From: Lutibacter sp.
GTDB taxonomy: Bacteria > Bacteroidota > Bacteroidia > Flavobacteriales > Flavobacteriaceae
Reading direction: 5' to 3'
Length of the DNA stretch: 64,000 nucleotides
Assembly (NCBI RefSeq): GCF_030692605.1
Contig: NZ_JAUYUD010000010.1
Span: 1 to 64,000 of the forward strand
The notes under the pieces were generated by a model. It saw only the letters and a program-made list of their open reading frames with translations. It ran no database searches and was not told where the DNA came from. A program made the position numbers and the translations under genes. Shown here piece after piece: positions 7,023 to 45,425 of the stretch (its first letter is position 1; each line of letters opens with the position of its first letter).

Positions 7023-7145
7023 TGTTAATTTATTAGATAATTAAAATATTTTGTAAATGTGAATATATAAAATTACAATAATTTAAAATTACTATAACTA
7101 ATATCAATTAAACTATTGATTAACTTTATCAGTGTGTCTAGCAAA

Positions 7146-10250: not shown

Positions 10251-13133
10251 ATGAATTCAAAAAAACAATTTATTTTAGGGATTTTCTCTTTTTTTACGGT
10301 CGCTATATTTGCGCAATCGTATCAAGTCACTGGGAAAGTAACAGACTCAGATAACCAGCCAATGCCAGGTGTTTCAGTGACCATTGAAGGAACATCAAGA
10401 GGAACTACGACTGATTTTGATGGTAAATATGCAGTTATGGTACAAAGTACTGAAAACCTTATTTTTTCATATGTAGGGTATAATGAAAAAAAATTACAAA
10501 TGGACGGCACAAAAATATTTAATATCGTCTTGGTTTCTGGAGTAGCACTAAAGGAAGTGTTAGTCGTTGGGTCGAGAAATCCAAACAGAACAGCAGTTGA
10601 CACTTCAGTACCTGTTGATATTATTGATGTTACTGAACTAATTACAGCTGGACCACAAGTTAACTTAAACCAAATATTGAATTATGTGGCACCTTCATTT
10701 ACGTCGAACACCCAAACTATTTCTGATGGTACAGACCATATAGACCCAGCTTCTTTAAGAGGTTTGGGCCCTGATCAAGTTTTGGTATTGATTAATGGTA
10801 AAAGAAGACACAATTCATCATTGGTAAATGTGAATGGTACATTTGGTCGTGGTAGTGTTGGTACCGACTTAAATGCAATACCAGCAGCCTCTATAGAACG
10901 TATTGAAGTTTTAAGAGACGGTGCAGCTGCACAATATGGTTCAGATGCCATTGCAGGTGTTATTAACATTGTATTAAAAAGAAGTACTAATGTGTTAAAC
11001 CTAAATGTTACAACCGGAGCAAATTTTACTAAAAATGCAAATGACCAAACTGGTGGTGTTGATGGAGAAACAACAAATGTTAGTGCAAACTATGGGCTCC
11101 AATTAGGTGACAAAGGTGGTTTTATAAACTTTACAGGAGATTTTGACGTTAGAGAAGACTACAGCAGAATGAAAGAATGGGAAGGTACTATCTTTAACAA
11201 ATATAATACTGTTGAAAGATTTGCAAATAATGCCGGGTATGATTTGTCTAAATTATTGGATGATAATGTTGCAGACGTAATTCAATATGGTAATGCAGCT
11301 GGTTTTGGTTTAAGCCCAAGTGCTACAAAAGCAGAATTACGAACTATCTTAGGAGCTGATAATACTGCTGCTGAATTAACGGCACGCGGATTGGAAAGAA
11401 GTGATTTTAATATGAGAGTTGGTCAGTCATCATTAAGAGGTGGTCGTTTCTTTGCTAACTTATCCCTTCCTTTAGATGAAAAAGGAACAGAATTATACTC
11501 TTTTGCAGGTATGAGTTCAAGAACAGGTAATTCTGCAGGATTTTATAGATTACCAAACCAAAGCAGAACTTATACTCCAGCTTATATCAATGGATTTTTA
11601 CCTGAAATCAATTCTAATATTTCAGATAAATCCTTCTCTGTTGGTATCAAAGGTAAAGTTTCTGAATGGGATGTTGATTTTAGCAATACTTGGGGAAAAA
11701 ATGCATTTATGTACACTATTGGAAATACATTCAATGCTTCTATGCAAAATACTTCGCCTACACTTTTTGATGCAGGTGGATTTTCATTTGCACAAAACAC
11801 TACTAATCTAGACATTAGCCAGTTTTTTGATGATACAATGGCTGGTTTAAACGTAGCTTTTGGTGCTGAATATCGAATAGAAAATTATGATATTATTGCA
11901 GGGGAACAACCTTCTTACGCACAATATACTGCTGATGGACAAGCCATTACTTTATCTACACAAGTTCCATCAAAAGATTTCTTTGGAAACTCAAGACCTG
12001 GTGGAGCTCAAGTTTTCCCTGGATTTAGCCCTGCCAACGAATTATCTCGCGGAAGAAGCAGCGTTGCTGGATATTTTGATTTGGAAGCCGATGTTACTGA
12101 AAATTTATTATTAAGTGGTGCCTTGCGTTATGAAGATTATTCTGATTTTGGTTCTACTTTAAATTTTAAAGTTGCCACTAGAATAAAAGCAGGTGAAAAC
12201 ACCAATGTTAGAGCCGCATTAAATACTGGTTTTAGAGCGCCTTCATTACACCAATTGAATTTCAATTCTACCTCCACAATTTTTAATAACTTAGGTAACC
12301 CTGTAGAAGTTGGTACATTTGCCAATGACAGCAGACCTGCAAAAATATTAGGTATTCCTCAATTAAAAGAAGAAACCTCAAAAAGCGTTAGTTTAGGATT
12401 TACCTCTAAATTACCTGACGCTCATTTAACATTTACTGTTGATGGCTATTGGGTAGGAATTGATGATAGAGTTGTATATACTGGGCAATTTGGTGGAGCT
12501 GCCATTGCGGCAGAATTAGCTAAGGCAAATGCATCAGCTGCTTCATTTTTCGCAAATGCAATTGATACAGAATCAAAAGGGATTGATATTGTAATAACGC
12601 ATGATGCTTTGATAGGAACTAATGCTAAGTTAAAATCTGACTTATCAGGTACTTTTTCTAAAACAATAAAAGTTGGCGACATTAAAGCCTCTGATGTTTT
12701 AATTAATGCAGGCTTAGTGGGAACATATTTTCCTGAAGACAGCAGGGTATATTTGGAAGAAGCTGTGCCTAGAACAAAAATTAATTTATCGAACAGTTTA
12801 ACGACTGATAAATTTAATGTGTTTTTAAGAAATGTTTGGTTTGGTGAAGTTACAGAAGCAACTACAACTGTTGCCAACCAACAAGTTTTTGGATCTAAAT
12901 TGGTAACTGATTTATCATTTGGATATAAAATGTCTGAGAGCACAACAATTACAGTCGGCGCAAATAACTTGTTTGACATTTATCCAGATAGAGCTACCCA
13001 AGATTTGCAGCCTGATGTGCCTCTTGACCAAAACAATAGAAGTGATGGTAGATTTGACTGGTCAAGAAGAGCGCAACAATTTGGTATTGGAGGTCGTTTT
13101 CTTTTTGCAAGATTGAATTTTATATTAAAATAA
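10251..13133 (+). CDS. TonB-dependent outer-membrane receptor with CarboxypepD_reg-like domain (paralogue A)
   Basis: The 960-residue protein has a signal peptide ending near FAQS (residue 22), a carboxypeptidase-regulatory-like beta-sandwich at about 25-105 ([18 protein letters not shown]), a plug domain (about 115-245) with the conserved [18 protein letters not shown] and [19 protein letters not shown] segments, and a 22-strand barrel ending in an aromatic-rich strand. It imports an unknown ligand with TonB energy. There is no SusD-like gene beside it, and it is not the longer SusC type. The plug is nearly identical in layout to that of the receptor at 51438-54161, so the two are paralogues. 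It is followed by a strong terminator and so is probably a single-gene unit. Confidence 0.9.
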
Positions 13134-13181
13134 TAACTAAATAAAAAGTCTTCAAAATAGAAGATTAAATTTTGAATATTT

Positions 13182-13217
13182 AAAACCCGTAAAGATATTT
13201 TGTTTACGGGTTTTTCA
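13182..13217 (+). terminator. Rho-independent terminator after TonB receptor A
   Basis: The stem aaacccgtaaa pairs with tttacgggttt around an eight-base loop and is followed by a T run, 50 bases downstream of the receptor stop codon. Confidence 0.85.
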
Positions 13218-13271
13218 TTTTTAAGAAAATTGGACTTTCAAAAAACAATTTAAAATATATTAATATGAAGG

Positions 13272-13365
13272 GTTGAATGCAATTAATTTTTAACGATGAT
13301 TTTTCGTTACTTCGAGTGATTTTCGTTTCGTTTTACTGCACAAAAAACATTCAAATAGAACAGGT
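13272..13365 (+). repeat. Dispersed repeat, shortened copy (partner at 61350-61499)
   Basis: This lies in the 340-base gap between the receptor and the TonB-C gene. Bases 13278-13325 match 61356-61403 with one difference. The match resumes at tttcgttttactgcac (13326 here, 61466 there), so this copy lacks a 62-base internal segment present in the other. The left edge gttgaatgcaatt is a degenerate form of the terminal repeat of the 61 kb element. No right terminal repeat is visible here. Apart from the terminator and promoter, the gap holds nothing else I can name. Confidence 0.75.
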
Positions 13366-13406
13366 TAATATGATATTTATCAATTCAATTAACAACTATT
13401 ATAGCG

Positions 13407-13414
13407 TATTTTTG
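13407..13414 (+). promoter_or_regulatory. Candidate -7 box for the TonB-C gene
   Basis: TATTTTTG fits the Bacteroidota TAnnTTTG consensus. It lies 59 bases before the ATG at 13474. No clear -33 TTG is seen at the expected distance. Confidence 0.45.
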
Positions 13415-13473
13415 CAGTAATTATTTTAAGCGAAATAATTTAACTCGTGAAAAGGTTATAGTTATAAAAAAAT

Positions 13474-13902
13474 ATGAAAACTACTTCAATTCTAATAATT
13501 CTGATTTTTTTAACTACACAAATCAATGCACAAAATACAATATTAAATATAAAGGATAATGCAAATTCAAGTGTTATAGAGCTTCCTTTAGCTTCAAAAA
13601 TCATAAATTCTCAACCTGAATTTCAAGGCGGTCATAAAGAGTTAGCCAAGTATTTAAGCAAAAACCTTAAATACCCAAGAAATTCAAATAATTCGAGTAT
13701 AAGAGGAAAGGTAATTGTAAGTTTTAAAGTTGAAGTAGATGGTGAAATTTCTGATGTAAATATAGTTGAAGGCGTTAACAAAATACTTAATAAAGAAGCA
13801 AAAAGAGTTGTTGAGAATATGCCAAATTGGAAACCTGCTTTTGAAAACGGTATTTCAGTAAGTAATGTCCTTATGATTTCTATTGTGTTTTTTAGAAATT
13901 AA
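13474..13902 (+). CDS. Small exported protein with TonB C-terminal domain
   Basis: The 142-residue protein consists of a signal peptide (residues 1 to about 20, ending INAQ) and a TonB_C domain from about residue 50 (PEFQGGHKELAKYLSKNLKYP, then GKVIVSFKVEVDGEISDVNIVEG and WKPAF). TonB_C domains contact the TonB box of outer-membrane receptors. It lacks the Pro-rich spacer of full-length TonB, and its N-terminal hydrophobic segment looks cleavable, so it may not couple to ExbB-ExbD directly. It follows receptor A on the same strand but after a terminator and with its own promoter. The role as an energy transducer is therefore uncertain. Confidence 0.8.
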   Translation: MKTTSILIILIFLTTQINAQNTILNIKDNANSSVIELPLASKIINSQPEFQGGHKELAKYLSKNLKYPRNSNNSSIRGKVIVSFKVEVDGEISDVNIVEGVNKILNKEAKRVVENMPNWKPAFENGISVSNVLMISIVFFRN

Positions 13903-13930
13903 AGCTTTCAGTAAGTCCATTTTATAAATT

Positions 13931-13960
13931 AAAAAGCTCCTCGTTTTGAGGAGCTTTTTT
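13931..13960. terminator. Bidirectional terminator between TonB-C gene and GH31 gene
   Basis: A perfect stem, aaaaagctcctc with gaggagcttttt, around a short loop, has A/T runs on both sides. It lies between convergent genes and can stop transcription from either side. Confidence 0.88.
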
Positions 13961-13983
13961 CTTGAGGTAATAGAGTAAAACAG

Positions 13984-16398
13984 TTAAATAAGAATTGTTT
14001 TTTTACCAATAATATGAAGCTCAGTAAATTCCTTTGAAATTACCAAAACATTTCCTTTAAGACTGGAACTCAAATCAATTTTAACATTATCAACTTCTAC
14101 TTTTCTGATTTCAAAGGGCAATCCAATTAAATTAATTTCAAAAGTTTCATACGAAGTAATAAATTTTCCTGATCTAAATTGTTGAATGGTCAAGGAATCT
14201 TCTTTGCCCAATAAATTAAAGTTTCTCAAGCTAAATCTTCCCTTTTTGTAATCGAATCCATCTTCTGCATCCTCATAAACCTGGGATTTTTCTTGTCCGA
14301 ATTTAAAAAAGACATCTAAATGAAGTTCCCCTATTTGTTTTTCCCCTACATATTGCTGAATGGGATATTTTGGGATTATGGCGCCTTCTTTCACAAAAAT
14401 TGGCATACTGTCCAAATCGGCATCAACCCAAACTTCATTTCCTCCTTTTATCAAGGAATTGTCCCAGAAATTATACCAATTTCCTTCAGGCACATACATT
14501 CTTCTTCCTTTGGCATTTGGCTCGGTAATTGGACAGGCCAATATTTTTTCCCCAAAAATAAATTCATCGTTCCTATAATGCGTATGTGCGTCGGCTTGGT
14601 CATATAAAACCAAAGATTTCAAAATAGGAATCCCTTCTGTTGCATAACGCCAAAATGCCGTATATAAATAAGGCAACAATTGGTACCTGATTTCAATGAA
14701 TTTTCTTACAATATCAGTAATGTTATCGCCAAAAGCCCAAGGTTCCTGGTCACCATGGTCGCCGGATGAATGCGTTCTGCAAAACGGGTGAAAAATTCCC
14801 AATTGAATCCAGCGTGCATAAAGTTCCCCGTTGGGCTGTTCTGCAAATCCGCCAATATCTGAACCCACAAATGAAAATCCGGACATGCACATTCGTTGTG
14901 CCTGTGCATTTGCAATAGATAAATGTTCCCAAGTAGCTACATTATCACCTGTCCAAGTGGATGTATATCGTTGAGTTCCAGCGTATGCGGCTCTTGTAAT
15001 TACAAAAGGTCTTTTTGGATACGAAAACTTTTTTAATCCGTGATAGGTAGCTCTCGCCATTTGCATTCCATATATATTATGTGCTTTTCTATGGCTACAA
15101 TGGTTCCCATCATAATCATGCCTTACGTCATCTGGAAATGTTTTACCAGGAACGTCCATAACGGCTGGCTCGTTCATGTCATTCCAAACACCCTTTACAC
15201 CAATATCTTCAATTAATTCTTTAAATAAACCTGCCCACCATTCTCTTACTTTAGGATTTGTAAAATCTGGAAAATAACATTCTCCTGGCCAAACTTTACC
15301 TTTCATATAAGGACCGTCTGCTCTTTTACAAAAATAATCTTTGTCGAGAGCTTCTTTAAAAACGCTATAATCTTTGTCAATTTTTATGCCGGGGTCAATT
15401 ATAGCTATAGTTTTAAAACCATTATCTAAAAGTTCTTTAACCATTCTTTTAGGATCTGGGAAATACTTCTTATTCCAAGTAAAGCACCTAAATCCCTCCA
15501 TATAATCTATATCCAAATAAATGGCATCACAAGGTATTTTTAACTCTCTAAACGTATTGGTAATTTCTTTTACCTTACTTTCTGGATAATAACTCCACTT
15601 ACATTGATGATAACCCAAAGCCCACAGAGGGGGCAATTGATGTGGCCTTCCAGTCAGATCTGTATAATTGGCAACAACATCTACCATATTTGGCCCGTAC
15701 ATAAAATAATAATTCATTTCTCCTCCCTGAGCCCAAAAACTAGTGACGTTTCTTCGCTCATGACAAAAATCAAAAAAAGATCTAAAGGTATTATCAAAGA
15801 AAATTCCGTACGCTTTTTTATCGTGAAGCCCTACATAAAAAGGAATGGCTTTATAAATAGGGTCTGTATCTCTACCATAGGCATAAGAATCTGTTACCCA
15901 ATTTTCAAATCTTTTTCCTTTTAAATTATTTTGAACAGGTTTATCGCCCAAACCATAATAGCTTTCACCAATTTGAGACATTTTTGACATTTTAACAATG
16001 TCACCACCATTTTCATGACTCTCTTCCCAATGAAAACCCAACTCATCTTCACAAATTAAATAATTATCAACAGCATCAAATAAAGAGATACGCATATCCA
16101 ATTTTGAGACTTTACATATTATTTTTGAAGTTTGAATACAGTAATATTTCTCATTTTCAGTAATGTCTAACTGATTAAATCCTCTACTCGCATACTTTGT
16201 AATGGCATAAGAGAAATCGTTTTCAAAAATAGAAGTTGTTGTAAATCTAAAACGAAAAATACTATCCCGTTGCACTGTAATTTGCAATACAACTCCATTT
16301 TCGCTTGTAAAATAAAGTGTATCTACATCTTTTTTGTATGATATTATTTTAGTTGGAAATAAATTTCCTTTAAGCTCTAATTCAGTATTTAAAATCAT
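13984..16398 (-). CDS. Glycoside hydrolase family 31 alpha-glucosidase
   Basis: At 804 residues this is a normal length for GH31. It has an N-terminal beta-sandwich (galactose-mutarotase-like), a TIM barrel and C-terminal beta domains. The nucleophile is D407 in GVWNDMNEP and the acid/base is D485 in WTGDN. It should remove terminal alpha-linked glucose from oligosaccharides by retention. No signal peptide is seen (MILNTELELKGN), so it is probably cytoplasmic, consistent with a place at the end of the glycogen cluster. It starts 132 bases after glgB with its own TACGTTTG box. Other GH31 activities (alpha-xylosidase, glucan lyase) cannot be excluded from sequence alone. Confidence 0.88.
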   Translation of the reverse strand: MILNTELELKGNLFPTKIISYKKDVDTLYFTSENGVVLQITVQRDSIFRFRFTTTSIFENDFSYAITKYASRGFNQLDITENEKYYCIQTSKIICKVSKLDMRISLFDAVDNYLICEDELGFHWEESHENGGDIVKMSKMSQIGESYYGLGDKPVQNNLKGKRFENWVTDSYAYGRDTDPIYKAIPFYVGLHDKKAYGIFFDNTFRSFFDFCHERRNVTSFWAQGGEMNYYFMYGPNMVDVVANYTDLTGRPHQLPPLWALGYHQCKWSYYPESKVKEITNTFRELKIPCDAIYLDIDYMEGFRCFTWNKKYFPDPKRMVKELLDNGFKTIAIIDPGIKIDKDYSVFKEALDKDYFCKRADGPYMKGKVWPGECYFPDFTNPKVREWWAGLFKELIEDIGVKGVWNDMNEPAVMDVPGKTFPDDVRHDYDGNHCSHRKAHNIYGMQMARATYHGLKKFSYPKRPFVITRAAYAGTQRYTSTWTGDNVATWEHLSIANAQAQRMCMSGFSFVGSDIGGFAEQPNGELYARWIQLGIFHPFCRTHSSGDHGDQEPWAFGDNITDIVRKFIEIRYQLLPYLYTAFWRYATEGIPILKSLVLYDQADAHTHYRNDEFIFGEKILACPITEPNAKGRRMYVPEGNWYNFWDNSLIKGGNEVWVDADLDSMPIFVKEGAIIPKYPIQQYVGEKQIGELHLDVFFKFGQEKSQVYEDAEDGFDYKKGRFSLRNFNLLGKEDSLTIQQFRSGKFITSYETFEINLIGLPFEIRKVEVDNVKIDLSSSLKGNVLVISKEFTELHIIGKKTILI

Positions 16399-35121: not shown

Positions 35122-37029
35122 TTAAAACTTAAAATCTAAACCAATTTTAAAATTTCTCCCTTTTGTAGTATAACCTATGGTTTCTACATAACCGTTATTA
35201 AATATATTATTTATTTGTGCAAAAACCAATATTTTATTTTTTATAATGGAATAACTTCCATAAAAATCAACCAAATTATAGGCCGCTAATTCAATATTTG
35301 AACCTGTTCCCCATTGATCAAAGTAAGTTCTTTGCGAAATATTCTTAAAATTCAAAGACAAGTACGTGTTTTTTAAAACTGTTGTTTCAACCATAGCTGT
35401 AAATTTGTTTTTAGGAATATAATCAAAATCAGCACTTTTGTTGGTGTAAGTATATCCAAGTTTAAAATTTACATCTTTTATTACATCAATTTTTAATTCA
35501 CTCTCAATTCCTTTAGCATTTATTGTTTTGTTAGCATTTTGATACGTTATATAATCGGGTAAAATAATGGCATTGCTTATTTCTCTATAAAAGAACACGG
35601 TATTTAATTCAATTTCTTTTTTAATTGAATAAATAAAACCAGCTTCAAAGGCACTATCTTCTTCAGGTTTTAAATCTAAATTTCCGTATTGAGAAAATAA
35701 TTGATACGTACTAGGCGCAATAAAAGCAGTACTATAAGAAGTTATTAAACGTAAATTATTTGAAAAATTATAAGACGGATTTACATTGTAAACTAAATGA
35801 TTTCCATACTCACTATGCAAATTTAACCGAACACCCGAATTTATATTAAATCCTGAAGTGGAATTGTAAACCACCGTAAAATAAGGATCAATCGTATTAT
35901 AATTTGCTACACTTTCATCAATATTGCCATACGGACTACTAGTTTTATTGTTTTGATCTTGAAAATTTACACCTGTAATTAATTGAAATTTTTCAGAGAA
36001 TTTATAATCATTTACTACATCCGCATACAAACTTTCTCCTTCATATTCAAAATGATCTACCCCATTTGTCCAAGCATTAAAACTATCAAATGTTCTTTCA
36101 TTTTTATTAAAAGATGCTACTAGTTTTAAGTTTCCCTTGTTGTATTTAAAGTTTGAAGTTAGTCCAAATCTATTTTGAGTGTTTTTACCTTTGTTTATAT
36201 CTGAATCTGTAAAAGCACCTCCATCATAATCATACACATCTTTATCATAATTATTGAATAAGGTTACACTCCAATTGTTTGAAAAATTATAGCCCATTCT
36301 TACATAGCTATTAATTGGTTGAAACTTATCGTTTTCAAATTTTATAGCGCTTTTTTCATCACTTGCTTCTGAAAGTCCATTAATATTTGAAGCATTTACA
36401 GATACCAAATAGTTAAACTTTTTTAAACTTCCATTCAACGCTATATTTTGATTGAAATCCAATAAATTTATAGAATTCTCTTTTTGAGAATTATTAGTTC
36501 CTGCAGAAACCTGATAATGTAATGAAATTGATTTTTTTTCTGACTCTTTTAGTTTAATATTTATTACCCCTGTAGCGGCCCCAGAACCATATAAAGTGCT
36601 TGCTGCACCATTCATAATTTCAATTGATTCAATTTGAGAAATGGTGAGTAAACGCAAATCAAATTCATTGTTAATGCCTGAAGGGTCGCTTAGTGGAACG
36701 CCATCAATAAGAACCAATGTTTGGTAACCTCTACCTCCTCTTACAAAGGCACTTTTGTTTTTCCCAGCTGAGCTATTATTTCCATTAATTTGAATTCCGG
36801 CTAAGTTATCCAACACATCAGCAACGGTTTTACCTTGTAAATTAACTAAATCCTCTGCTTTAATTTGGTAAATAACTTTACCTATTTTTTCCTTTTCAAT
36901 GGCAAATTTTGTTGCTACTAGTACAACTTCTTTTAATTCTTCTACTTTTTCAGTTTTTTCTTGAGCTTTTAAAGTACTTACTATTAAAAACATACAAATA
37001 ACACTAACATAAAATGATCTTTTTTTCAT
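35122..37029 (-). CDS. btuB: BtuB-like TonB-dependent receptor (cobalamin uptake)
   Basis: The 635-residue receptor has a signal peptide ending LKAQ (residue 22), a plug domain at about 30-140 (EVVLVATK, then GKTVADVLDNLAGIQING and ESIEIMNGAASTLYGSGAATGVINI) and a 22-strand barrel ending in NFKIGLDFKF. Length is that of BtuB/FepA-type receptors without the extra CarboxypepD_reg domain. The cobalamin riboswitch in its leader identifies B12 or a related corrinoid as the regulating ligand, and therefore the likely cargo. The divergent neighbour is a BtuF-like binding protein. BtuC/BtuD are not in this window. Confidence 0.88.
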   Translation of the reverse strand: MKKRSFYVSVICMFLIVSTLKAQEKTEKVEELKEVVLVATKFAIEKEKIGKVIYQIKAEDLVNLQGKTVADVLDNLAGIQINGNNSSAGKNKSAFVRGGRGYQTLVLIDGVPLSDPSGINNEFDLRLLTISQIESIEIMNGAASTLYGSGAATGVINIKLKESEKKSISLHYQVSAGTNNSQKENSINLLDFNQNIALNGSLKKFNYLVSVNASNINGLSEASDEKSAIKFENDKFQPINSYVRMGYNFSNNWSVTLFNNYDKDVYDYDGGAFTDSDINKGKNTQNRFGLTSNFKYNKGNLKLVASFNKNERTFDSFNAWTNGVDHFEYEGESLYADVVNDYKFSEKFQLITGVNFQDQNNKTSSPYGNIDESVANYNTIDPYFTVVYNSTSGFNINSGVRLNLHSEYGNHLVYNVNPSYNFSNNLRLITSYSTAFIAPSTYQLFSQYGNLDLKPEEDSAFEAGFIYSIKKEIELNTVFFYREISNAIILPDYITYQNANKTINAKGIESELKIDVIKDVNFKLGYTYTNKSADFDYIPKNKFTAMVETTVLKNTYLSLNFKNISQRTYFDQWGTGSNIELAAYNLVDFYGSYSIIKNKILVFAQINNIFNNGYVETIGYTTKGRNFKIGLDFKF

Positions 37030-37092
37030 TTTTGAATTGATTTAAATTAATAAATTAAATCAGGTAAATTTTTCAAGTATAGAAAACCATAC

Positions 37093-37317
37093 TCAAACCT
37101 TTCGCCCGAAAGTTTGAACTATTTTGATTGTGGCAGGTCTCCTGGCTTGCGTATTGTTATTTACCTTCCCATTCACATTGAACAGTGGTTTAAAGTGTAA
37201 TAACAACCATCGAAATAAATCGACAAAGCATACAGTTGCGGGAACAGCGTTGGAATTTAACCAACTTCCCTTTTCACTCTTGCATACTGAAGTATACGCG
37301 AGAACCATAATCTGGCG
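37093..37317 (-). promoter_or_regulatory. Cobalamin riboswitch in the BtuB-like leader
   Basis: Read on the minus strand the leader contains the B12-box region gccaggagacctgcc (37132-37146), the upstream core with ttcccgcaactgta (about 37230-37244) and gggaag elements, and paired outer arms beginning at gcgccag. Downstream, a hairpin (37093-37115, caaac-cttt with aaa-gtttg around cgcccg) may be the switch that hides the translation start or forms a terminator. Its exact mechanism is unclear, since no strong U run follows. Adenosyl- or other cobalamins should lower btuB expression. Confidence 0.93.
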
Positions 37318-37325
37318 CAAAATTA
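37318..37325 (-). promoter_or_regulatory. Promoter -7 box for the riboswitch transcript
   Basis: TAATTTTG on the minus strand matches TAnnTTTG and abuts the first paired region of the riboswitch, so transcription would start right at the aptamer. Confidence 0.55.
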
Positions 37326-37376
37326 ATTAATTCAGACTAATTAGTATCATTTATTTCTATTAAATTTCTAAAATAG

Positions 37377-37384
37377 TACATTTG
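37377..37384 (+). promoter_or_regulatory. Promoter -7 box for the BtuF-like gene
   Basis: TACATTTG matches TAnnTTTG and lies 15 bases before the ATG at 37400, leaving a leader of fewer than about ten bases. The gene is therefore outside the riboswitch. Confidence 0.6.
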
Positions 37385-37399
37385 CACAAAAAATAATTT

Positions 37400-38539
37400 A
37401 TGCGCTCTTATAGTATAATTTGTATTGTGTTAATATTAAGTAGCATAGCTCAATCATCATGCAATGATATTACAAATTCAAAGAAAAAAGAAGAAGTAGT
37501 TGGAGTTAAAACCCAACTAAAATATGCCAAAGGTTTTGAAATAATTACCTACAAAAATTACAAATTACTTCGTATAAAGGCGCCATATCAAAATGCAACT
37601 GAAACATTCGAGTATGTTTTAACTACCAACAAAACTAAAACTAATTCTGAACTAAATACCATTCAAATTCCTGTAAAAAAATTGGTGGTAACTAGTACAA
37701 CGCATATACCGATGTTAGAATTATTAGAAAGCGAATCCAAATTAATTGGGTATCCAAATACCGATTATATTTCGTCTGAAAAAACAAGAAAATTAATTGA
37801 AAGTGGAACAATTACTAATTTAGGCAATGAAGAACAAATAAATACAGAGTTGTTGATTAACCTACATCCTGAAGTTGTAATAGGTTTCTCTTTATCAAGT
37901 AATAATAAAATGTTCGAAAACATTCAACAATTAGGAATTCCAGTACTGCTAAACGGCGATTGGTTGGAAGAAAGTCCGCTGGGAAGAGCTGAATGGATTA
38001 AATTTTTTGGTGTTTTGTTTGATAAAGAAAAAGAAGCAGATCGTATTTTTAATAAAATTGAAAAAAATTATGCTGAAGCAGCGTCTCTTGCTAAAAAAGC
38101 AACTACAAAACCTACCGTAATTTCTGGAGGTTTGTTTAAAGATATATGGAATTTACCTGCAGGAGATAGCTTTGAAGCCCAATTTTTGAACGATGCCCAA
38201 ACCAATTATTTATGGAAAAATTCTAAAGGAAAAGGAAGCCTTACCTTAAATATTGAAAATGTGTTTGAAAAAGGCCAACAAGCAGAAATTTGGATTTCTC
38301 CTAGTTACTTTACAACCCTCAGTGAAATGGAACAAAGCAATGCAATTTATAAAGAATTTAAAGCCTTTAAAATAAAAGAAGTTTATTCGTTTGTTAAAAA
38401 GAAGGGTGCAACAGGTGGAGTTATTTATTTTGAACTAGCTCCTACCCGACCAGATTTGGTGCTAAAAGACCTTATTAAAATTGCACATCCTGAATTGTTA
38501 AAAAACTATGAATTAACTTTTTATGAAAGATTGAAGTAA
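37400..38539 (+). CDS. BtuF-like periplasmic binding lipoprotein (ABC transporter substrate binder)
   Basis: The 379-residue protein has an N-terminal export signal with a Cys at residue 20 (AQSSC), a slightly atypical lipobox. The body is a class III periplasmic-binding fold (Peripla_BP_2) with VVTSTTHIPMLELLESESKLIGYP near residue 100, LINLHPEVVIGF, and the long connecting helix after LGRAEWIKFFGVLF. Family members bind cobalamin or iron-siderophore complexes. Its divergent neighbour under a B12 riboswitch makes corrinoid the likely ligand. No permease or ATPase follows in the window. Confidence 0.85.
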   Translation: MRSYSIICIVLILSSIAQSSCNDITNSKKKEEVVGVKTQLKYAKGFEIITYKNYKLLRIKAPYQNATETFEYVLTTNKTKTNSELNTIQIPVKKLVVTSTTHIPMLELLESESKLIGYPNTDYISSEKTRKLIESGTITNLGNEEQINTELLINLHPEVVIGFSLSSNNKMFENIQQLGIPVLLNGDWLEESPLGRAEWIKFFGVLFDKEKEADRIFNKIEKNYAEAASLAKKATTKPTVISGGLFKDIWNLPAGDSFEAQFLNDAQTNYLWKNSKGKGSLTLNIENVFEKGQQAEIWISPSYFTTLSEMEQSNAIYKEFKAFKIKEVYSFVKKKGATGGVIYFELAPTRPDLVLKDLIKIAHPELLKNYELTFYERLK

Positions 38540-38856
38540 GTTTATAGTTAAAAAGTCCTTTTTGTCCTCGTCATTGACGAGTACCCCAGCTCGCGCTAGC
38601 AGGGATTCTTTTAAATTCATACTGCTAATTTAACTTATTTTTTTGAATTTGGGAGTTACCATATTTGTTTTAGCCGCGTTGCAAACGCTACGTTTTATGT
38701 GCTAATTTATTAGGTACTTGTCACAGACGAGCCAGAGGGATAAAGTAAATTTATTGTTATCAAATGTAAACATTAAATCATTTCGCCAATGTTAAGTTTT
38801 TCCCTAATTATAAGGAATAACAATTGATTTTTAGAGAAAGTTGAGATTATTATAAA
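38540..38856. other. 317-base gene-free gap with REP-like palindromes
   Basis: The gap holds a hairpin ctcgtcattgacgag (about 38573-38587), a following GC-rich stretch ctcgcgctagcaggg, and repeat copy A at 38651-38740. No protein-coding frame stands out. It marks the left edge of a minus-strand module that ends at the matching repeat at 45.4 kb. Confidence 0.6.
38651..38740 (+). repeat. REP-like direct repeat, copy A
   Basis: From 38672 the sequence matches 45356-45425 at roughly 62 of 70 positions in the same orientation, with weaker similarity extending about 20 bases to the left. It contains two small palindromes: gcgttgcaaacgc and a degenerate form of ctcgtcacagacgag. Confidence 0.8.
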
Positions 38857-40302
38857 TTAGAATCGTGTAGTCCAGCGGAGTTCGACACCTTTGTAATCTA
38901 ACACTTCGTAACAAATTCCTGCATTGCAAGCAGGACCACCACGACGCTGTCCAGCAAATAATTGCAAACTATTTTCGTTGTTGATTTGATACTTGAGATT
39001 ACTTCCAAACCAAGTTTTCCACGTTTTATCTGTTAAAAACGGATCATTGGATAGCTCACTAACTAAAGAGAATATCCATTTGGATTTGAAGGCGTAACCC
39101 AATGTAAGAACCTGATTTTGCACATTGATGCCTCCTCGATTGAAATGTTGAAATTCATATTCTGTTCTTAAAGATGATTTTTCAGATGTTTTCCAATCAA
39201 CATAAATTCCTGATGATATACGGTTGCTTTGGTCCTTGAAAGGATCTTCGGCATAATCTACAAATAATTTGAAATCGTGATGGGAAGCTGTCGAAAAAGA
39301 ATATTCAGCGAAATATTCTTGAAAAATAAAATCTTTATTTAAAGCATTTTTTGAAATAGCATTGTTTACAGTCAAAACTGAGGCGTCTGGAAAGGTATAA
39401 TAGGCTTCGATTTGGTAACCAGATTCATTTATAGGTTGTACCACGTGAGTACTTCTGTTTAGCAATCTGTAACTGTGTTCTTTAATCAAAGCTGGAACTT
39501 CGTTGAATCCAGATCCGAGAAGAAAATTGTTATAGTCTTTAACTTCAGCCGTTATACCTATATTCGCAAAAGTAAAATTGATGTTTCCGTAGTAGGCGTG
39601 ACTCGATGCATTATCAATATCGTTGGCAATTTCAGTATAATAATTTATTTTTGGCGAAATAACTCCAGACAAACTAAGCATTGTGTAATTGCTATTCCCT
39701 TTGTCATTATTCAGCGATAGGAATGAAGCACCCAAGGTTTGTTTTTTGAAGGTATAATCAGAATAAATGGCTTTTATTTCATCGATTCTTCGAACGGAGT
39801 TGTCTTGATTGGGTGGAAAGACGTTATTTAGAGGTTTTCCCCAAATTACTTTGGTTGTAAAGTCTTTTAGTTTCAATTTGGCACTAATTCCTTGTACATC
39901 TCTAAAAAAATAGTTTCGAGAACGATACCCTTGGTCTTCAAGTATGGCACCGGGAATCTCAAACGACCGCAATAATATTCCACGTCCTATAGTTTCGTTA
40001 AAGTTTCCTAAAGAAACATCCAGAATGTCGGAATTGTATTTTAGCGAATATTGGGTGATTTTGGTATAATTCCTTTCTTCGTAGCGGGTGTAATATTGCT
40101 CTAATGTTACGCCTGCGGTAAATCGATTATAGGTATATCCTAATAATGCTCGATCGTAGGCCGTGCCAAAATTGATTGCATCGCTAGGTAGTTTTCCATA
40201 TTGAGTTTCTAATAGATTGCTGCCATAAAATTGGGCAAAACCTCGGGTTGTACAACATAGAAAAAGCATTAGAACTGCAAAAGATATTATTCTATTTTTC
40301 AT
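38857..40302 (-). CDS. DUF6029-type outer-membrane beta-barrel protein
   Basis: I place the start at the ATG at 40302 (481 residues), giving MKNRIISFAVLMLFLCCTTRGFAQ, a proper signal peptide; the frame stays open upstream but overlaps the TlpA-like gene. The mature protein starts FYGSNLLETQYGKL and is full of alternating aromatic strands (YTRYEERNYTKITQYSLKYN), typical of a porin-like barrel. It ends with a Cys pair in PACNAGICYEVLDYKGVE and a terminal RWTTRF. I recognise the pattern as Bacteroidota DUF6029. The start overlaps the end of the thioredoxin gene by 11 bases, so they are translationally coupled. Function unknown. Confidence 0.75.
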   Translation of the reverse strand: MKNRIISFAVLMLFLCCTTRGFAQFYGSNLLETQYGKLPSDAINFGTAYDRALLGYTYNRFTAGVTLEQYYTRYEERNYTKITQYSLKYNSDILDVSLGNFNETIGRGILLRSFEIPGAILEDQGYRSRNYFFRDVQGISAKLKLKDFTTKVIWGKPLNNVFPPNQDNSVRRIDEIKAIYSDYTFKKQTLGASFLSLNNDKGNSNYTMLSLSGVISPKINYYTEIANDIDNASSHAYYGNINFTFANIGITAEVKDYNNFLLGSGFNEVPALIKEHSYRLLNRSTHVVQPINESGYQIEAYYTFPDASVLTVNNAISKNALNKDFIFQEYFAEYSFSTASHHDFKLFVDYAEDPFKDQSNRISSGIYVDWKTSEKSSLRTEYEFQHFNRGGINVQNQVLTLGYAFKSKWIFSLVSELSNDPFLTDKTWKTWFGSNLKYQINNENSLQLFAGQRRGGPACNAGICYEVLDYKGVELRWTTRF

Positions 40303-40774
40303 TGCTGTATTTTTCGATTTGAGCAATAATTTCTTTTTCGTCACCGGAAATAAAACCTTCGTGGAACCATACAATCTTGCCTTTGGCGTTGACAATAATC
40401 AATGTTGGAAATGCCGAAAGATTCAGTTGTGTTTTGACTGTAGAATCAATATCTAATAGTACAGGGTATTGTATTTTAAGTGATTGGCTCATTGGTCCCG
40501 CCTTAGCAATACTTCTCGGTCCATCACAATTGATGCTTATAAATGAAACTCCCTTGTCTTTGTATTGTTCGTAAATTGTATTGATTGCAGGAATTGATTT
40601 TAAACAAGGTTTGCACCAAGTGGCCCAAAAATCGATAACAGTGAGTTTTTCACCTTTTAGTTCGTCAAAACTTTTAGTGCTGTTTTGAGTATCTTTTAAG
40701 CTGAAATTTTTTATCGATTGGGCTTGAAGTTGTATGCCAATGAAAAATAGAAACACTAAATAGATTGATTTCAT
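40292..40774 (-). CDS. TlpA-like exported thiol-disulfide oxidoreductase
   Basis: The 160-residue protein has a signal peptide (to about AQS, residue 20) and a thioredoxin fold with the active-site pair C54/C57 in ATWCKPC. The TlpA/ResA-type cis-Pro region is FPTLIIVNAKGKIVW. It would reduce or isomerise disulfides, or reduce metal-centre proteins, in the periplasm. It is coupled to the DUF6029-type barrel gene, whose C-terminal Cys pair is a possible but unproven substrate. Confidence 0.88.
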   Translation of the reverse strand: MKSIYLVFLFFIGIQLQAQSIKNFSLKDTQNSTKSFDELKGEKLTVIDFWATWCKPCLKSIPAINTIYEQYKDKGVSFISINCDGPRSIAKAGPMSQSLKIQYPVLLDIDSTVKTQLNLSAFPTLIIVNAKGKIVWFHEGFISGDEKEIIAQIEKYSNEK

Positions 40775-41042
40775 ATGTAGGTATTTATTGTTTTTTTAAA
40801 GGTCATATGTAATTCGCATATCTTCATTGGATGTTTGCGACCAATTTTAAGGTTATGCTCATTTCATACTGTTTGATTTTAAAATTTAATGTGACTTCAA
40901 ATGTCTTTTGTGAAAACTTGTTTGTGGGATGGCAATAAACCGCCAAAATTCCTCAATATCCTTACATAGTGTAAAAAGAACCAAATAAGTACAGCTGTTT
41001 TGGTTGTTTTTACGAATGTATAGGGCAAAAAGGGTTTTAAAT

Positions 41043-41615
41043 TTACTTTAAAAGTTCATCAATTTTTGCTTTGGCAGCATTGACATCTGAGCTCGCTCCT
41101 TGAGTTCCGGAAAACGCAATTTTGCCTGCTTTATCAATCACAACCAAACGGTCATAAGTAGTTTTGTAACTTGCAGCTACACTTGACCCCATTAGTAATA
41201 ATGGAAATCCAACACCGGTGATCGTTTTAAAACTTTGAACTTTGGCAGCGTTGCCATCCCATTGGTCTATACCATAAAATTTAAAATTGGCATTTGAAGC
41301 ATAAGGAGCATATAAATCTGAATTTATTTTTGGAGCCGCAGCTTTGCAAGAAGGGCATTCGTTGCCAAAAAAGAAAATTACAACTACTTTGTTTGGAGAA
41401 TCCGATAGTTTTACTGTAGTGTTATCCAAAGAAGTTAGCGAAAAATCGGGTGCTGTAACACCATTCGAACCTGTTGGTGGTGGAGTTGTTGTGTTGTTTG
41501 AACTATCATCGTCTCCAGAACAAGAATTTAGGGCTATAAGTAATAGCGCGACTAGAGATGCTTTAAGCATATTTTGAAATATACTTGTTGCCGTTAAATT
41601 TTTAGCTGTGTTCAT
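41043..41615 (-). CDS. Redoxin/TlpA-like lipoprotein
   Basis: The 190-residue protein carries a lipobox ending ALNSC (Cys32), a Pro/Thr/Ser-rich linker (NNTTTPPPTGSNG) and a redoxin domain from about residue 55 (APDFSLTSLDNTTVKL). The active-site pair is C87/C90 in FGNECPSC, followed by a peroxiredoxin-like arrangement. The first 16 residues before M17 are unusual for a lipoprotein signal, so translation may begin at 41567 (MLKASLVALLLIALNSC). It lies between the sensor kinase and the TlpA-like gene on the same strand. Its substrate is unknown. Confidence 0.82.
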   Translation of the reverse strand: MNTAKNLTATSIFQNMLKASLVALLLIALNSCSGDDDSSNNTTTPPPTGSNGVTAPDFSLTSLDNTTVKLSDSPNKVVVIFFFGNECPSCKAAAPKINSDLYAPYASNANFKFYGIDQWDGNAAKVQSFKTITGVGFPLLLMGSSVAASYKTTYDRLVVIDKAGKIAFSGTQGASSDVNAAKAKIDELLK

Positions 41616-41733
41616 AAATTTTTTTTTTAAAGTTTTAAATTTATTTAATGTTTTATAAAATTCTTTGTGTTTTTATTTGTTAGATTGAGTAGAGAGTCTA
41701 TTTTAAAGCTCTTAATTTTGGTTCATAAAATTG

Positions 41734-43200
41734 CTACACACATTTTAATTTGAAAATAAAAGAGCTTCCAGCGTTTTCTTTACTTACTAAATCTAGCGTG
41801 GATTGGTGTAAATCGAGTATTTTTTTTGCGATAGCAAGTCCAAGTCCCGTACTGTTTTTTAAATCGGTGAAATTGTTTGCTTTGTAATAGCGCGCAAAAA
41901 TTTGTTCTCTGTCGTTTTCAGGTATACCAATACCATTGTCACTCACCGATATTTCCACATCATTATTGTTACTTTGAACCGTTTTAATTTCTATTTTTCC
42001 GCCGCTAGGAGTAAATTTCAAAGCATTATCAATCAGATTTTGCATCACACGCTCAATCAACGAAACGTCAGCAAATACTGGCGATAGTCCTTTATCAAGT
42101 ACCGTTTCTATAGAAATATTTTTGGTTTCGGCAATAAGCTTGTATTTGTTACTTATGTCACTCACTAATTCACTAATGATGAACGGTTCTTTTTTTGCTA
42201 AAACTTGGTTGGCCTCAAGTTTAGACAATTCGAAAAGTTCATTGACGAGTTTCTCTAATTTCTCTGCGCTTTCTTTTACAGTGTTGATGTATTGTTTACG
42301 TTCTTCGACTGTTATGGTTTCTTCTTTCATTTGCAATGTTTCCACATAACCGCGAATAATCGCAATTGGCGTGCGTAAATCGTGAGAAACATTAGCAATT
42401 AGTTCTCTTCTTAGGTTTTCGACTTCATTGAGTTTATCGATATTCAATGTTAGAATATCTGCCATTTCATTAAACATTTCCCCCAATTGTCGTTCATCAC
42501 CCATAGATTTAAATTCGATTCTTGCCTTTAAATCGCCTTCTCTAAATTGATTCATAACTGTGAGTATCTTCGAATAATTATTGGTTATTACTCGGATAAT
42601 TAGCAACCCAATTAAAAAGGTAAAAATCAATGTGATTCCCATAGTTCTTGCGCTCAATTTCAACAAATAGCTTTCGAAAAGAGAATCGGATGCTGCTTCT
42701 TGTTTCTCTCCATTGAGTACCACGTAAATATAGGCGTACAGCATATTATTCATTGTCAGCGGTGAGGCTGAAAACACTTTTTGCTGCGATGGATTAAGAG
42801 GGTCATCTCCCTTTATAAAAGTATTTTTCTTGTCGTCTATAAAACTTAAAACAGGGGCTAAGTTTATTTGTTGTAGAGCGATTTTTCGTTCTGGTGGATA
42901 CCAGGCGATGATTTTGCCTTTAGGATCAACAAGATACACTTCAAGACTTGGATTTATTGCTCTCACGTGATGAAACATTTCTTCAAGGGCCGGTTTTATA
43001 ACTTCTCCGTTATAAAAAGGAGTAGAGTTTTCGACAATGTTCTTGGCAGTATCGTGATTGAGTCGCTGATTTACTTCCTCTAAATACGTTTTTGAATATT
43101 CGTGGCTTAGATACGTATACATTAAACCTACCACTGCAAGTAGTAAAAAAAATACTATTGATATTTTCCAAAATAAACTGTTAAATGTTGATTTCTTCAT
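41734..43200 (-). CDS. HAMP-domain sensor histidine kinase
   Basis: The 488-residue kinase has TM1 (about 11-30), a periplasmic sensor loop of about 150 residues with a PAS/Cache-like look (VYLVDPKGKIIAWYPPE), TM2 (about 187-205), HAMP (to about 255), HisKA with H273 in ANVSHDLRTP, and an HATPase_c domain with LIDNALKFTPSGG, DNGIGIP and GLGLAIAKKI boxes. It is translated just after its cognate regulator (two-base gap). The signal is unknown, but the adjoining redoxin genes suggest a redox or envelope cue. Confidence 0.92.
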   Translation of the reverse strand: MKKSTFNSLFWKISIVFFLLLAVVGLMYTYLSHEYSKTYLEEVNQRLNHDTAKNIVENSTPFYNGEVIKPALEEMFHHVRAINPSLEVYLVDPKGKIIAWYPPERKIALQQINLAPVLSFIDDKKNTFIKGDDPLNPSQQKVFSASPLTMNNMLYAYIYVVLNGEKQEAASDSLFESYLLKLSARTMGITLIFTFLIGLLIIRVITNNYSKILTVMNQFREGDLKARIEFKSMGDERQLGEMFNEMADILTLNIDKLNEVENLRRELIANVSHDLRTPIAIIRGYVETLQMKEETITVEERKQYINTVKESAEKLEKLVNELFELSKLEANQVLAKKEPFIISELVSDISNKYKLIAETKNISIETVLDKGLSPVFADVSLIERVMQNLIDNALKFTPSGGKIEIKTVQSNNNDVEISVSDNGIGIPENDREQIFARYYKANNFTDLKNSTGLGLAIAKKILDLHQSTLDLVSKENAGSSFIFKLKCV

Positions 43201-43202
43201 AA

Positions 43203-43904
43203 TTAATTTATTTCATCAGTAAAACGATATCCAATACCCCAAGTGGTCAAAATGTATTTTGGGGTTGTAAGATCAGCTTCAATTTTGGTTCGTAATCTAT
43301 TTATGTGTGAGTTTACTGTGTGTTCGTAACCGGAGAATTCATATCCCCAAACTATATTTAGTAAATTTTCTCGGGAATAGTTTTTTCCAGGATTTGACAT
43401 AAATAGATACAACAAATCAAACTCTTTCGGAGTCAGTTCTACCTTATTGCCCTCCAGTGTTACCTTTCTTTTTACAGGGTCGATGACTAATGATCCACTT
43501 GTTATGATTTCTTCTGCAATCTCATTTTCCGATTTTACCATTTCGGTTCTTCGCAAAATGGCTTTTATTCTAGCAATGAATTCTCTGATACTAAATGGTT
43601 TTGTTAAGTAATCATCTGCTCCAGTTTCTAGCCCTATTATTTTATCAATTTCCTCACTGCGAGCGGTTAGCATTAAAATTGGTGTGAAAATTTTAGCTGC
43701 TCTCAATCGTCTGCATATCTCAATTCCGTCCATTTCTGGAAGCATAACATCAAGTATAATCATATCATACTTATTTTTGGTGGCCAAGTTTAAGCCTTCG
43801 GTCCCAGTATGTGCTTTGGTCAAATTACAATAAATGTCTTTTAAATGTATCGCAACTAGTTCCACTATCGAAACATCATCTTCAATCATTAAAATGTTTT
43901 TCAT
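43203..43904 (-). CDS. OmpR-family response regulator
   Basis: The 233-residue regulator has a receiver domain with the acidic pair D9/D10, phospho-acceptor D52 (IILDVMLPEMDG) and K102-region KPF motif, and an OmpR/PhoB winged helix (LTPKEFDLLYLF and HTVNSHINRLRTKIE). It pairs with the kinase that follows. Both are probably transcribed from a promoter in the 43905-44266 gap, which I could not place. Likely targets are the neighbouring envelope genes, an inference from synteny. Confidence 0.93.
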   Translation of the reverse strand: MKNILMIEDDVSIVELVAIHLKDIYCNLTKAHTGTEGLNLATKNKYDMIILDVMLPEMDGIEICRRLRAAKIFTPILMLTARSEEIDKIIGLETGADDYLTKPFSIREFIARIKAILRRTEMVKSENEIAEEIITSGSLVIDPVKRKVTLEGNKVELTPKEFDLLYLFMSNPGKNYSRENLLNIVWGYEFSGYEHTVNSHINRLRTKIEADLTTPKYILTTWGIGYRFTDEIN

Positions 43905-44062
43905 AGTCTATTGTTATTTAAATTTAATTCTTCGACAGAAGTTATTTTGCTTTACAAATATGAGACTTAGTTATCACAAAATAATCACGTAATTATTTTT
44001 TTTTGAAAAATTAGGCTAAAAATCCTCAATTAAAAGGTTTGTTTTTAGCCTAATGTATCATA

Positions 44063-44238
44063 ATCCCAGAATCCGCATTAGAAATCTGCTGCATCTGAAT
44101 TCTTCTTCAAAACCAAGAACTTACTCCTATTTTTAAAATCAAAATTCAAAAGTATTCCTCATCTAAAAATAGTCCGTGAGCTCTTGTTTTTATTGAATTA
44201 TTCAGCTTCGTTACGATGTCTAATGCGGATTCTGGGAT
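44063..44238. mobile_element. MITE-like element with 18-base perfect terminal inverted repeats
   Basis: Left arm ATCCCAGAATCCGCATTA (44063-44080) is the exact reverse complement of 44221-44238, and the next six bases match 5 of 6. The element is 176 bases long, non-coding, and lies in the 362-base gap before the response regulator gene. Short flanking similarities are not long enough to call a target duplication. Confidence 0.6.
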
Positions 44239-44266
44239 AATTTGCATTTTGATTGTTTTTTCTACC

Positions 44267-45151
44267 TTATTTTTTTGCAGTTCCTGTTGGATTGGTTGCA
44301 ATGGCATTATTAGCCATCGAATATACTACGTGATCCATTGCGGTTGCTGAAATAGTGGCTAAAAGCGGCTTTAATAAAAACGGTTTTGGACTATTGTCCG
44401 GGAAAGGTTCGATGCTGATTACTGCAGTTTTGCCCGACAAATCCGTTGGAAACGTTACTCCTGAAGGTGCATTTTTTATAAAATCTTCTCCTGGAAAAGG
44501 AGGAGTTCCTAAAGCTCCACTGAATCCATTGAACGCATCTGCTCCTGAGGGAGTTGTGAATGTTCCCGTAGTTACAGGTGTTCCGTTGATGACTACCCAA
44601 CCTTCATATTTCCATCCTGCTGGTAAGGTAGGTAATTCTAATCCTGCAGTTGGAGGGAGAGAACCAATAAACCAAAGTCCACTTTTTTCATTTGTATTGT
44701 CTGCGTCAGAAGGTGTAGCTAACACATATTTTCCTTTAGCAGCTGTAAAATTATTAGCCAAAGCTTCAGGAGCTCCAATAGATAGAGCGGCATTATCTGA
44801 TGCAAAATCACCAGCTAGTAAATGTGTAGCCGTTGGCGCTGGATTTGAATCGGGAAAAGGTTCAATTGTCAGGATAAATTTTGAGGCTTTACTTAGATTA
44901 GTTGAAGAAATTGGAAAAGAAGTTTGCGAAAGAACGCCAGTTGAATTTACTGAAAAAGTTCCCGTTGTTACTGGACTACCATCTACCATAATCCATCCTT
45001 CGTATTTGTAATTTGGACCTAAGTCCTCTAGTCCGGTGATGTTTAATGTCAAATTTTGACTTTGAGGAGAATCATTAGAATCATTTGTGCAGCTTGCCAA
45101 AAGCGCTACCATAAAAAGTCCTACTAAGGAAAGGTTTTTTTTTGTTTTCAT
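44267..45151 (-). CDS. Lipoprotein with two copies of an RskA-like beta-domain
   Basis: The 294-residue protein has a lipobox ending LLASC (Cys21) and a short Asn/Ser linker. It then carries two related segments of about 130 residues: YKYEGWIMVDGSPVTTGTF (about 48) and WKYEGWVVINGTPVTTGTF (about 180). Each is followed by an IEPFPDSNPAP- or IEPFPDNSPKP-type strand. The pattern GWxxxDGxPVxTGxF and the later IEPFPD resemble the C-terminal domain of anti-sigma-K-type proteins. I see no membrane-cytoplasm anti-sigma segment, so it is a surface or periplasmic lipoprotein of unknown role. It is first of the minus-strand module. Confidence 0.7.
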   Translation of the reverse strand: MKTKKNLSLVGLFMVALLASCTNDSNDSPQSQNLTLNITGLEDLGPNYKYEGWIMVDGSPVTTGTFSVNSTGVLSQTSFPISSTNLSKASKFILTIEPFPDSNPAPTATHLLAGDFASDNAALSIGAPEALANNFTAAKGKYVLATPSDADNTNEKSGLWFIGSLPPTAGLELPTLPAGWKYEGWVVINGTPVTTGTFTTPSGADAFNGFSGALGTPPFPGEDFIKNAPSGVTFPTDLSGKTAVISIEPFPDNSPKPFLLKPLLATISATAMDHVVYSMANNAIATNPTGTAKK

Positions 45152-45331
45152 TTTGTTAGTGTTTTATTTAGCTTACTTCTCTTTAATGTCTTTTTTCAGC
45201 AAATTCAGACTTGTTTGTTTTTGTTGGTACAAACCTAGTTTGAAGTTATCACGAAAAGATTGCAGAGAAATAAACTTTTTTGAACGGAAATAATACAAAA
45301 CAAAAATCTCACCTATCAGGGTTAAAAAAAA

Positions 45332-45425
45332 GGGCGGATTACAATATTTATAGTAAGCCGTGTTGCAAACGCTGCGTTTTATATGATAATTTATTAGGTA
45401 CTCGTCACAGACGAGCACCAGAGGA
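45332..45425 (+). repeat. REP-like direct repeat, copy B
   Basis: This is the second copy of the repeat at 38651-38740, in the same orientation. It has the intact palindrome ctcgtcacagacgag (45401-45415) and a cgttgcaaacg dyad. It lies in the 305-base gap between the lipoprotein and parC, which holds nothing else I can name. Confidence 0.8.

Follow-up and report, generated by a model that had tools for sequence, protein, structure and literature searches.

A TlpA-like protein, a DUF6029 barrel and a thioredoxin-fold partner form a conserved gene unit in Bacteroidota: a possible thiol relay at the outer membrane

This report concerns six open reading frames (ORFs) at 38857-45151 on the minus strand of a 64,000 nt stretch of Lutibacter sp. 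DNA, hereafter the window (assembly GCF_030692605.1, contig NZ_JAUYUD010000010.1, positions 1-64,000, forward strand). In the order of transcription they are Rsk, RR, HK, Rdx, Tlp and Bar, with families assigned by a Pfam scan of the six proteins. An earlier sequence-only reading had listed six consecutive minus-strand genes of these kinds, with which the ORFs and Pfam matches agree, and had taken them for one system. The latter is not supported: the complete set is found in 3 of 81 compared loci (the window, L008 and L040), the regulatory half is found without the barrel, and the six-gene set was rejected as a conserved unit. The six genes are two joined modules, a redox half (Rdx, Tlp, Bar) and a regulatory half (RR, HK, Rsk). 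The conserved unit is a TlpA-type protein, a DUF6029 barrel and a thioredoxin-fold partner. We tentatively propose that Rdx, Tlp and Bar could form a thiol-disulfide relay across the outer membrane, a reading that we favour and nonetheless hold to be somewhat short of even likelihood.

The last gene of the block, Bar (38857-40302, minus strand; 481 aa), encodes an outer membrane beta-barrel of the DUF6029 family (PF19494; 89.3 bits against a cut-off of 27), with a signal peptide ending in ...GFAQ and a C-terminal Phe. Its start is most likely the ATG at 40302 rather than the TTG at 40395. With this start, the Bar and Tlp genes share 11 nt; co-translation, which the sequence-only reading had assumed, is thus plausible. 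Tlp (40292-40774, minus strand) is a TlpA/ResA-like thioredoxin-fold protein (AhpC-TSA, 74.2 bits) with the motif WCKPC and a signal peptide without a lipobox, so that we place it in the periplasm; its PDB relatives include ResA. Against NCBIfam it scores 91.1 of the 170 bits required for ResA and 41.8 of the 230 bits for TlpA, both below the cut-off, and we call it ResA-like and not ResA. Rdx (41043-41615, minus strand) is a redoxin lipoprotein with CPSC (AhpC-TSA, 53.2 bits).

DUF6029 was found at E <= 0.001 in 80 of 296 genomes sampled from the phylum (78 above the curated cut-off) and in none of 14 control genomes; the window barrel as a query has matches in 59 of the 296. The 81 loci comprise the window, L008, L009, 5 further genomes, and 73 loci of 72 other DUF6029 genomes, one of which contributes two. 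They cover 73 of the 80 DUF6029 genomes, the window included (left out are G096, G112, G157, G170, G193, G284 and G289). Loci were chosen by the barrel alone, with neighbours ignored, and fall into 29 groups: 27 numbered families (f37 contributes 15 loci) plus L008 and L009 each alone. The first 40 loci served to build the profiles for Tlp and Rdx, so that the last 40 (L109-L148) are independent of both; for the Omp28 profile, seeds came from both halves of the set.

In 70 of the 81 loci, a Tlp match above 100 bits is either fused to the barrel or no more than 400 bp away from it; widening the distance to 3.5 kb raises the count to 72. No match of this strength occurs in 670 kb of the farther flank of the same loci (the near flank amounts to 557 kb); weaker matches, representing other thioredoxins, do occur. 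Among the independent loci, Tlp is nearby in 34 of 40. In 72 of the 81 loci a third protein, matching the Omp28 or the Rdx profile above 80 bits, is found at most 3.5 kb away; the farther flanks contain eight such Omp28 matches and one Rdx match, so the partner is less exclusive to the barrel than Tlp is. Both Tlp and a partner are within 3.5 kb in 66 of 81 loci, and at least one such locus occurs in 24 of the 29 groups. In L066 a single frame of 667 aa (6939-8942) carries a thioredoxin domain at residues 21-140 followed by DUF6029 at 158-667, an order that would put the thioredoxin on the periplasmic, N-terminal side of the barrel. Pairwise distances of Tlp and Bar correlate with r 0.92 over 67 pairs (the best of 500 permutations gave 0.10), a value to which the shared species history contributes.

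The sequence-only reading had pointed to a Cys pair at the end of the barrel, and this pair proved to be highly conserved. The two Cys codons of the window barrel (38926-38928 and 38911-38913; the C-x4-C stretch is 38911-38928, minus strand) stand 17 and 22 positions ahead of the final residue (C459 and C464 of the 481-residue protein). In an alignment of 40 barrels, selected by eye from the 81 so as to be diverse and as little as 16% identical to the window barrel, the invariant columns are seven glycines and C455 and C460 (in the numbering of a 477-residue barrel). In 79 of the 81 loci the barrel carries the motif C-x4-C, with the two Cys 18/23 or 19/24 residues from its C-terminal end; the two remaining frames (L068 and L129) are cut or split, so that all 79 full-length barrels have the pair. 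Cys is otherwise scarce in these barrels: with the N-terminal 40 and C-terminal 30 residues set aside, the 79 barrels hold 24 Cys in 36,920 residues, and 62 of them have none. This background, like the recurrence of the neighbourhood across the phylum, speaks against a chance pattern. The last strand of outer membrane barrels runs to the periplasm; the hairpin before it, which holds the pair, should therefore face outward. A profile search of the PDB with the 40 barrels returned two weak RecA chains and no beta-barrel.

WCxxC is present in all 69 Tlp proteins taken, 68 of which have no lipobox by a simple pattern. The third place is filled by two Pfam families of the thioredoxin fold, Omp28 or redoxin, and these partners hold CxxC except for two large matches to the Rdx profile in L143 and L145. 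The one Omp28 partner scanned matches PF11551 and the PDB entry 2r2c. By simple patterns, the 35 Rdx-profile proteins include 15 with a lipobox, 18 with a type IX-like tail and 2 with neither; three of the 18 (in L143, L145 and L146) are large proteins of Omp28-type loci and not plain redoxins. The two with neither are those of the window and L008, and both show LNSC by eye. The 55 Omp28-profile proteins include 25 with a lipobox only, 12 with a tail only and 8 with both. All these counts are rough, since the "lipobox" found by the pattern is sometimes the CxxC itself; the tail of one redoxin was confirmed by Pfam as Por_Secre_tail. The N-terminus of the window Rdx, LNSC-SGDDD, is of the lipoprotein type by eye and was missed by the simple pattern. 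Its acidic stretch after the lipid Cys (CSGDDD) resembles the signals SDDFE and SDDDD, which PMC5080379 describes as surface export signals of lipoproteins. These acidic residues, together with the lipobox and type IX signals, make a surface location of the partner proteins likely, and the window Rdx is perhaps surface-exposed.

The relay that we propose would operate as follows. Thiol exchange would take place between the periplasmic TlpA-like protein and the barrel's Cys pair, which would sit in the last extracellular hairpin, perhaps folded into the lumen. The pair would then exchange with a thioredoxin-fold protein at the surface, i.e., the redoxin lipoprotein in this genome and Omp28 or a type IX-secreted redoxin elsewhere. 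TlpA/ResA-type proteins with WCxPC are usually reductants, and reducing power would therefore be likely to flow outward, where it may serve the repair of surface proteins or the reduction of external disulfides. The kinase and regulator with the RskA-like lipoprotein, joined to the redox half in this genome, may control the relay.

Several points weigh against this proposal. The conservation pattern would be nearly the same if TlpA merely made or repaired a structural disulfide. The extracellular position of the pair is argued from barrel parity alone, and a periplasmic TlpA could reach a pair facing outward only in the lumen or through a loop movement. AlphaFold prediction of the full and the mature Bar with three sequences (window, L008, L009) gave a mean predicted local distance difference test score (pLDDT) of 43 and 37, and we draw no claim on the fold from it. 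Ten of the 55 Omp28-profile partners have neither a lipobox nor a tail by pattern. Nine of the 81 loci lack a Tlp gene at this distance (3.5 kb), and their barrels still keep the Cys pair; they include all 4 loci of f46, where Omp28 is present, and L055, at a contig end. The thioredoxin-fold partner is likewise missing within 3.5 kb in 9 of 81 loci, and L061 and L115 have neither protein.

The first of these points belongs to the main rival explanation, in which TlpA is a dedicated maturation or repair factor that reduces or isomerises the barrel disulfide as the barrel assembles, or gates an ordinary pore by reducing it, and the third protein is only a cargo or client. The overlapping or abutting Tlp and Bar genes and the fusion fit a factor with one client, and the constant spacing of C-x4-C fits a structural or gating disulfide. 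However, the frequent third thioredoxin-fold protein, drawn from two Pfam families and, by pattern, mostly equipped with lipoprotein or type IX signals, is left unexplained, and we regard this explanation as rather unlikely, albeit a serious one.

The remaining rivals depend on the genes around the triad. We scanned 108 neighbour proteins from 62 of the 81 loci (same strand, at most 3 ORFs away, at least 110 aa, outside the labelled classes); the 19 loci omitted were near-duplicates or the window, which was already known, and of 122 proteins that qualified 14, mostly very long, were left out. The top family was Por_Secre_tail (7 of 108), followed by DUF6588 and PD40 (3 each) and by 15 families with 2 each, including epimerases, Rhodanese and AhpC-TSA. 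In the first of these rivals, DUF6029 would be a Wzi-like porin for polysaccharide, or would act as the translocon of the thioredoxin-fold proteins encoded beside it. In PMC9603273, many of 28 Wzi-type barrels located near export genes are reported to resemble DUF6029 by HHpred, and a polysaccharide role is proposed; in our scan, two of the 108 neighbours match the sugar-nucleotide epimerase families RmlD_sub_bind, GDP_Man_Dehyd, Epimerase and Polysacc_synt_2. Against this, none of the Pfam families matched by at least 2 of the 108 is Poly_export, and the Cys pair and TlpA would have no explanation; we consider an export porin improbable. Likewise improbable in our opinion is metal uptake or export, with the Cys pair (present in all 79 full-length barrels) as a ligand in a metal-specific pore and TlpA and the redoxin as Sco/TlpA-like metal chaperones: TlpA/Sco-type proteins can indeed serve copper insertion, but no metal transporter or chaperone is among the families matched by at least 2 of the 108 neighbours, the partners hold CxxC with the two exceptions named above, and the neighbouring cobalamin riboswitch and BtuB-like receptor lie outside the direct repeats described below. 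With little or no recurring neighbour family behind them, the polysaccharide and metal readings were set aside. The sequence-only reading had suggested disulfide or metal handling; the former survives as an envelope thiol system with a key Cys pair, and the latter finds no support among the scanned neighbours.

Some genes near the triad can be mentioned in their own right. A DUF6588 protein follows Omp28 in L062 (5879-6829), and similar-looking genes follow Omp28 in L063 and L064. In L009, a contig of Marinilabiliaceae, DUF1800 and DUF1501 genes, the latter with a type IX tail, directly follow Rdx-Tlp-Bar (11723-15052). Proteins of one shared profile stand near Tlp-Bar in families f30 and f48 (L054, L056, L057, L058, L072 and L074-L077). 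Eight of them, in 7 loci, have a paired-Cys motif of the type W..S-C-F, and the two proteins submitted to Pfam each carry a type IX tail; we consider these proteins candidate substrates of the thiol system.

The regulatory half begins the block. Rsk (44267-45151, minus strand) is a two-domain lipoprotein with a lipobox at its N-terminus and a match to PF10099 in two stretches (44.5 bits against a cut-off of 29.4). Pfam at E values up to 1 yields RskA_C only, the NCBIfam anti-sigma model gives 27.3 of the 100 bits required, and no sigma factor is found by Pfam among the six window genes. RR (43203-43904, minus strand) is an OmpR/PhoB-type response regulator (Response_reg and Trans_reg_C), and HK (41734-43200, minus strand) is a sensor histidine kinase (HisKA and HATPase_c). 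The only Cys of HK is its penultimate residue; HK as a thiol sensor was rejected, as there is no Cys except beside its end.

This half is separable from the redox half. Among 199 genomes of the family, 58, the window included, have relatives of Rsk, with 63 matches, and 20 of the loci were examined. Relatives of RR/HK stand beside Rsk or one gene off in 6 of the 20, a ResA-like gene does so in 9, and a barrel match was found in none of the 20 stretches. Three loci of f7 have RR, HK and Rsk and no barrel in the stretch. In L210, RR-HK (76% and 75%) follow a pepT-like gene and two others; the contig ends about 1 kb past HK, and the genome has no DUF6029 match.

A 13-nt element, TTTHGTGATAACT, was considered in relation to control. 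It has three matches in the window genome, two of which precede genes of the regulatory half: TTTTGTGATAACT upstream of RR (43969-43981, minus strand) and TTTCGTGATAACT upstream of Rsk (45244-45256, minus strand). The third match lies inside an ORF and was taken as chance. In L008 the element precedes both Rsk and RR; in L040 one copy is exact and the other has a single mismatch. The core GTGATAA is found upstream of Rsk in 2 of the 20 Rsk loci (L186 and L194), so Rsk genes do not in general carry the element. For the suggestion of the earlier reading that the system is signal-controlled, the two copies are one hint in favour; on the other hand, no copy lies ahead of the redox genes in the window, but the gaps of HK-Rdx-Tlp-Bar in L040 are as short as 24, 33 and 1 nt. 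Between Rsk and RR the window also has a 27-nt inverted repeat (93%) enclosing 128 nt (44060-44241), which resembles a miniature inverted-repeat transposable element; a genome search for its 18-nt core, allowing up to 2 mismatches, found no other copy, and no such repeat was seen by reading in the Rsk-RR gaps of L008 (179 nt) and L040 (116 nt).

The six genes as present in the window are bracketed by two copies of a 61-nt direct repeat (92%; 38672-38732 and 45356-45416). A search with 88 bases at E <= 0.001 found these two places only and no third copy in the genome, and no long match of the repeat held in the other loci. The stretch of the right copy folds into a strong hairpin. The G+C content of the cassette is 0.350 compared to 0.312 for the window. 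The two-copy bracketing repeats and the different site of the genes in L008 and L040 suggest that the six genes probably moved here as one cassette. Outside the repeats, a cobalamin riboswitch (37115-37324, minus strand) precedes a BtuB-like gene (35122-37029; its BtuB-like match is below the cut-off), and a Peripla_BP_2 binding protein is encoded on the strand opposite to the receptor gene; this region (35122-38539) is probably a separate neighbouring locus for B12. A cobalamin link to the six genes was rejected, as the riboswitch and the BtuB-like gene lie outside the repeats.

A quick, midpoint-rooted tree of 79 barrels unites the 21 Rdx-type barrels (the window, L008, L040, L039, L009 and families f37 and f43) in one clade with a Shimodaira-Hasegawa-like approximate likelihood ratio test support of 100; the tree places its remaining barrels from Flavobacteriales, which are of the Omp28 type or partnerless, at a distance from this clade. 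The window barrel type is rare in its own genus and family. It occurs in 2 of 38 genomes of the genus, the window's own included, and a draw of 397 family genomes contained no match at E <= 1e-20 apart from the window itself and a broken piece in G533; G275 and G011, known from other draws, would have matched and are thus outside the 397. The remnant in G533 (8338-8670 of L204) has no Tlp or Rdx match in its 19-kb stretch. L008 is filed as Lentimicrobium; the gene order of its flanks is the same as in L040, a genome of the window's family (the flank gene names pepT, yajC and nusB were assigned by eye), so that its contig is probably misbinned.

The supply of redox power to proteins beyond the Gram-negative outer membrane is largely an open question, for which the triad is a simple candidate. 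If the relay is real, DUF6029 would obtain a function and Omp28 a redox role, and some bacteria would pass thiol redox chemistry through the outer membrane, with a sensor kinase packaged alongside in this genome. The sequence-only reading knew of no named system with such a gene set, and we found no description of the TlpA-DUF6029 barrel-partner set in the sources that our literature search, which was not exhaustive, could reach.

The likeness to known systems is partial in each case. Rsk shares with RskA (PF10099) the RskA_C-like domain, in two copies; unlike RskA, it is a lipoprotein, no N-terminal anti-sigma domain was found in it, and its neighbours are a two-component pair rather than a sigma factor. 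The window Bar belongs to DUF6029 (PF19494) by its Pfam score. The accessible part of PMC9603273 mentions neither TlpA nor a Cys pair for its Wzi-type barrels, and no recurring Poly_export is found among the 108 neighbours scanned here. Omp28 (PF11551, 2r2c) is the common third gene elsewhere in the phylum, and the redoxin replaces it in the clade of the window. Omp28 is known mainly as a surface antigen. TlpA, ResA and CcmG are periplasmic thioredoxins fed by CcdA or DsbD, helical proteins of the inner membrane. Tlp has the same fold, WCxPC and a signal peptide, and here, too, a membrane protein would link two compartments; however, this membrane partner is a beta-barrel of the outer membrane that has a single Cys pair, and the acceptor probably resides at the surface. 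It is conceivable, though we hold it more loosely than the relay itself, that DUF6029 barrels in general are the outer membrane counterpart of CcdA/DsbD, i.e., haem-free thiol conduits from periplasmic TlpA to a surface thioredoxin for reducing or oxidising power. To our knowledge, the redox conduits through the outer membrane known so far use haem. MtrCAB, the porin-cytochrome electron conduit of the outer membrane, is likewise a barrel with redox proteins on both sides; the window Bar, Tlp and Rdx differ from it in having no CxxCH haem motif, and their chemistry would be thiol-based.

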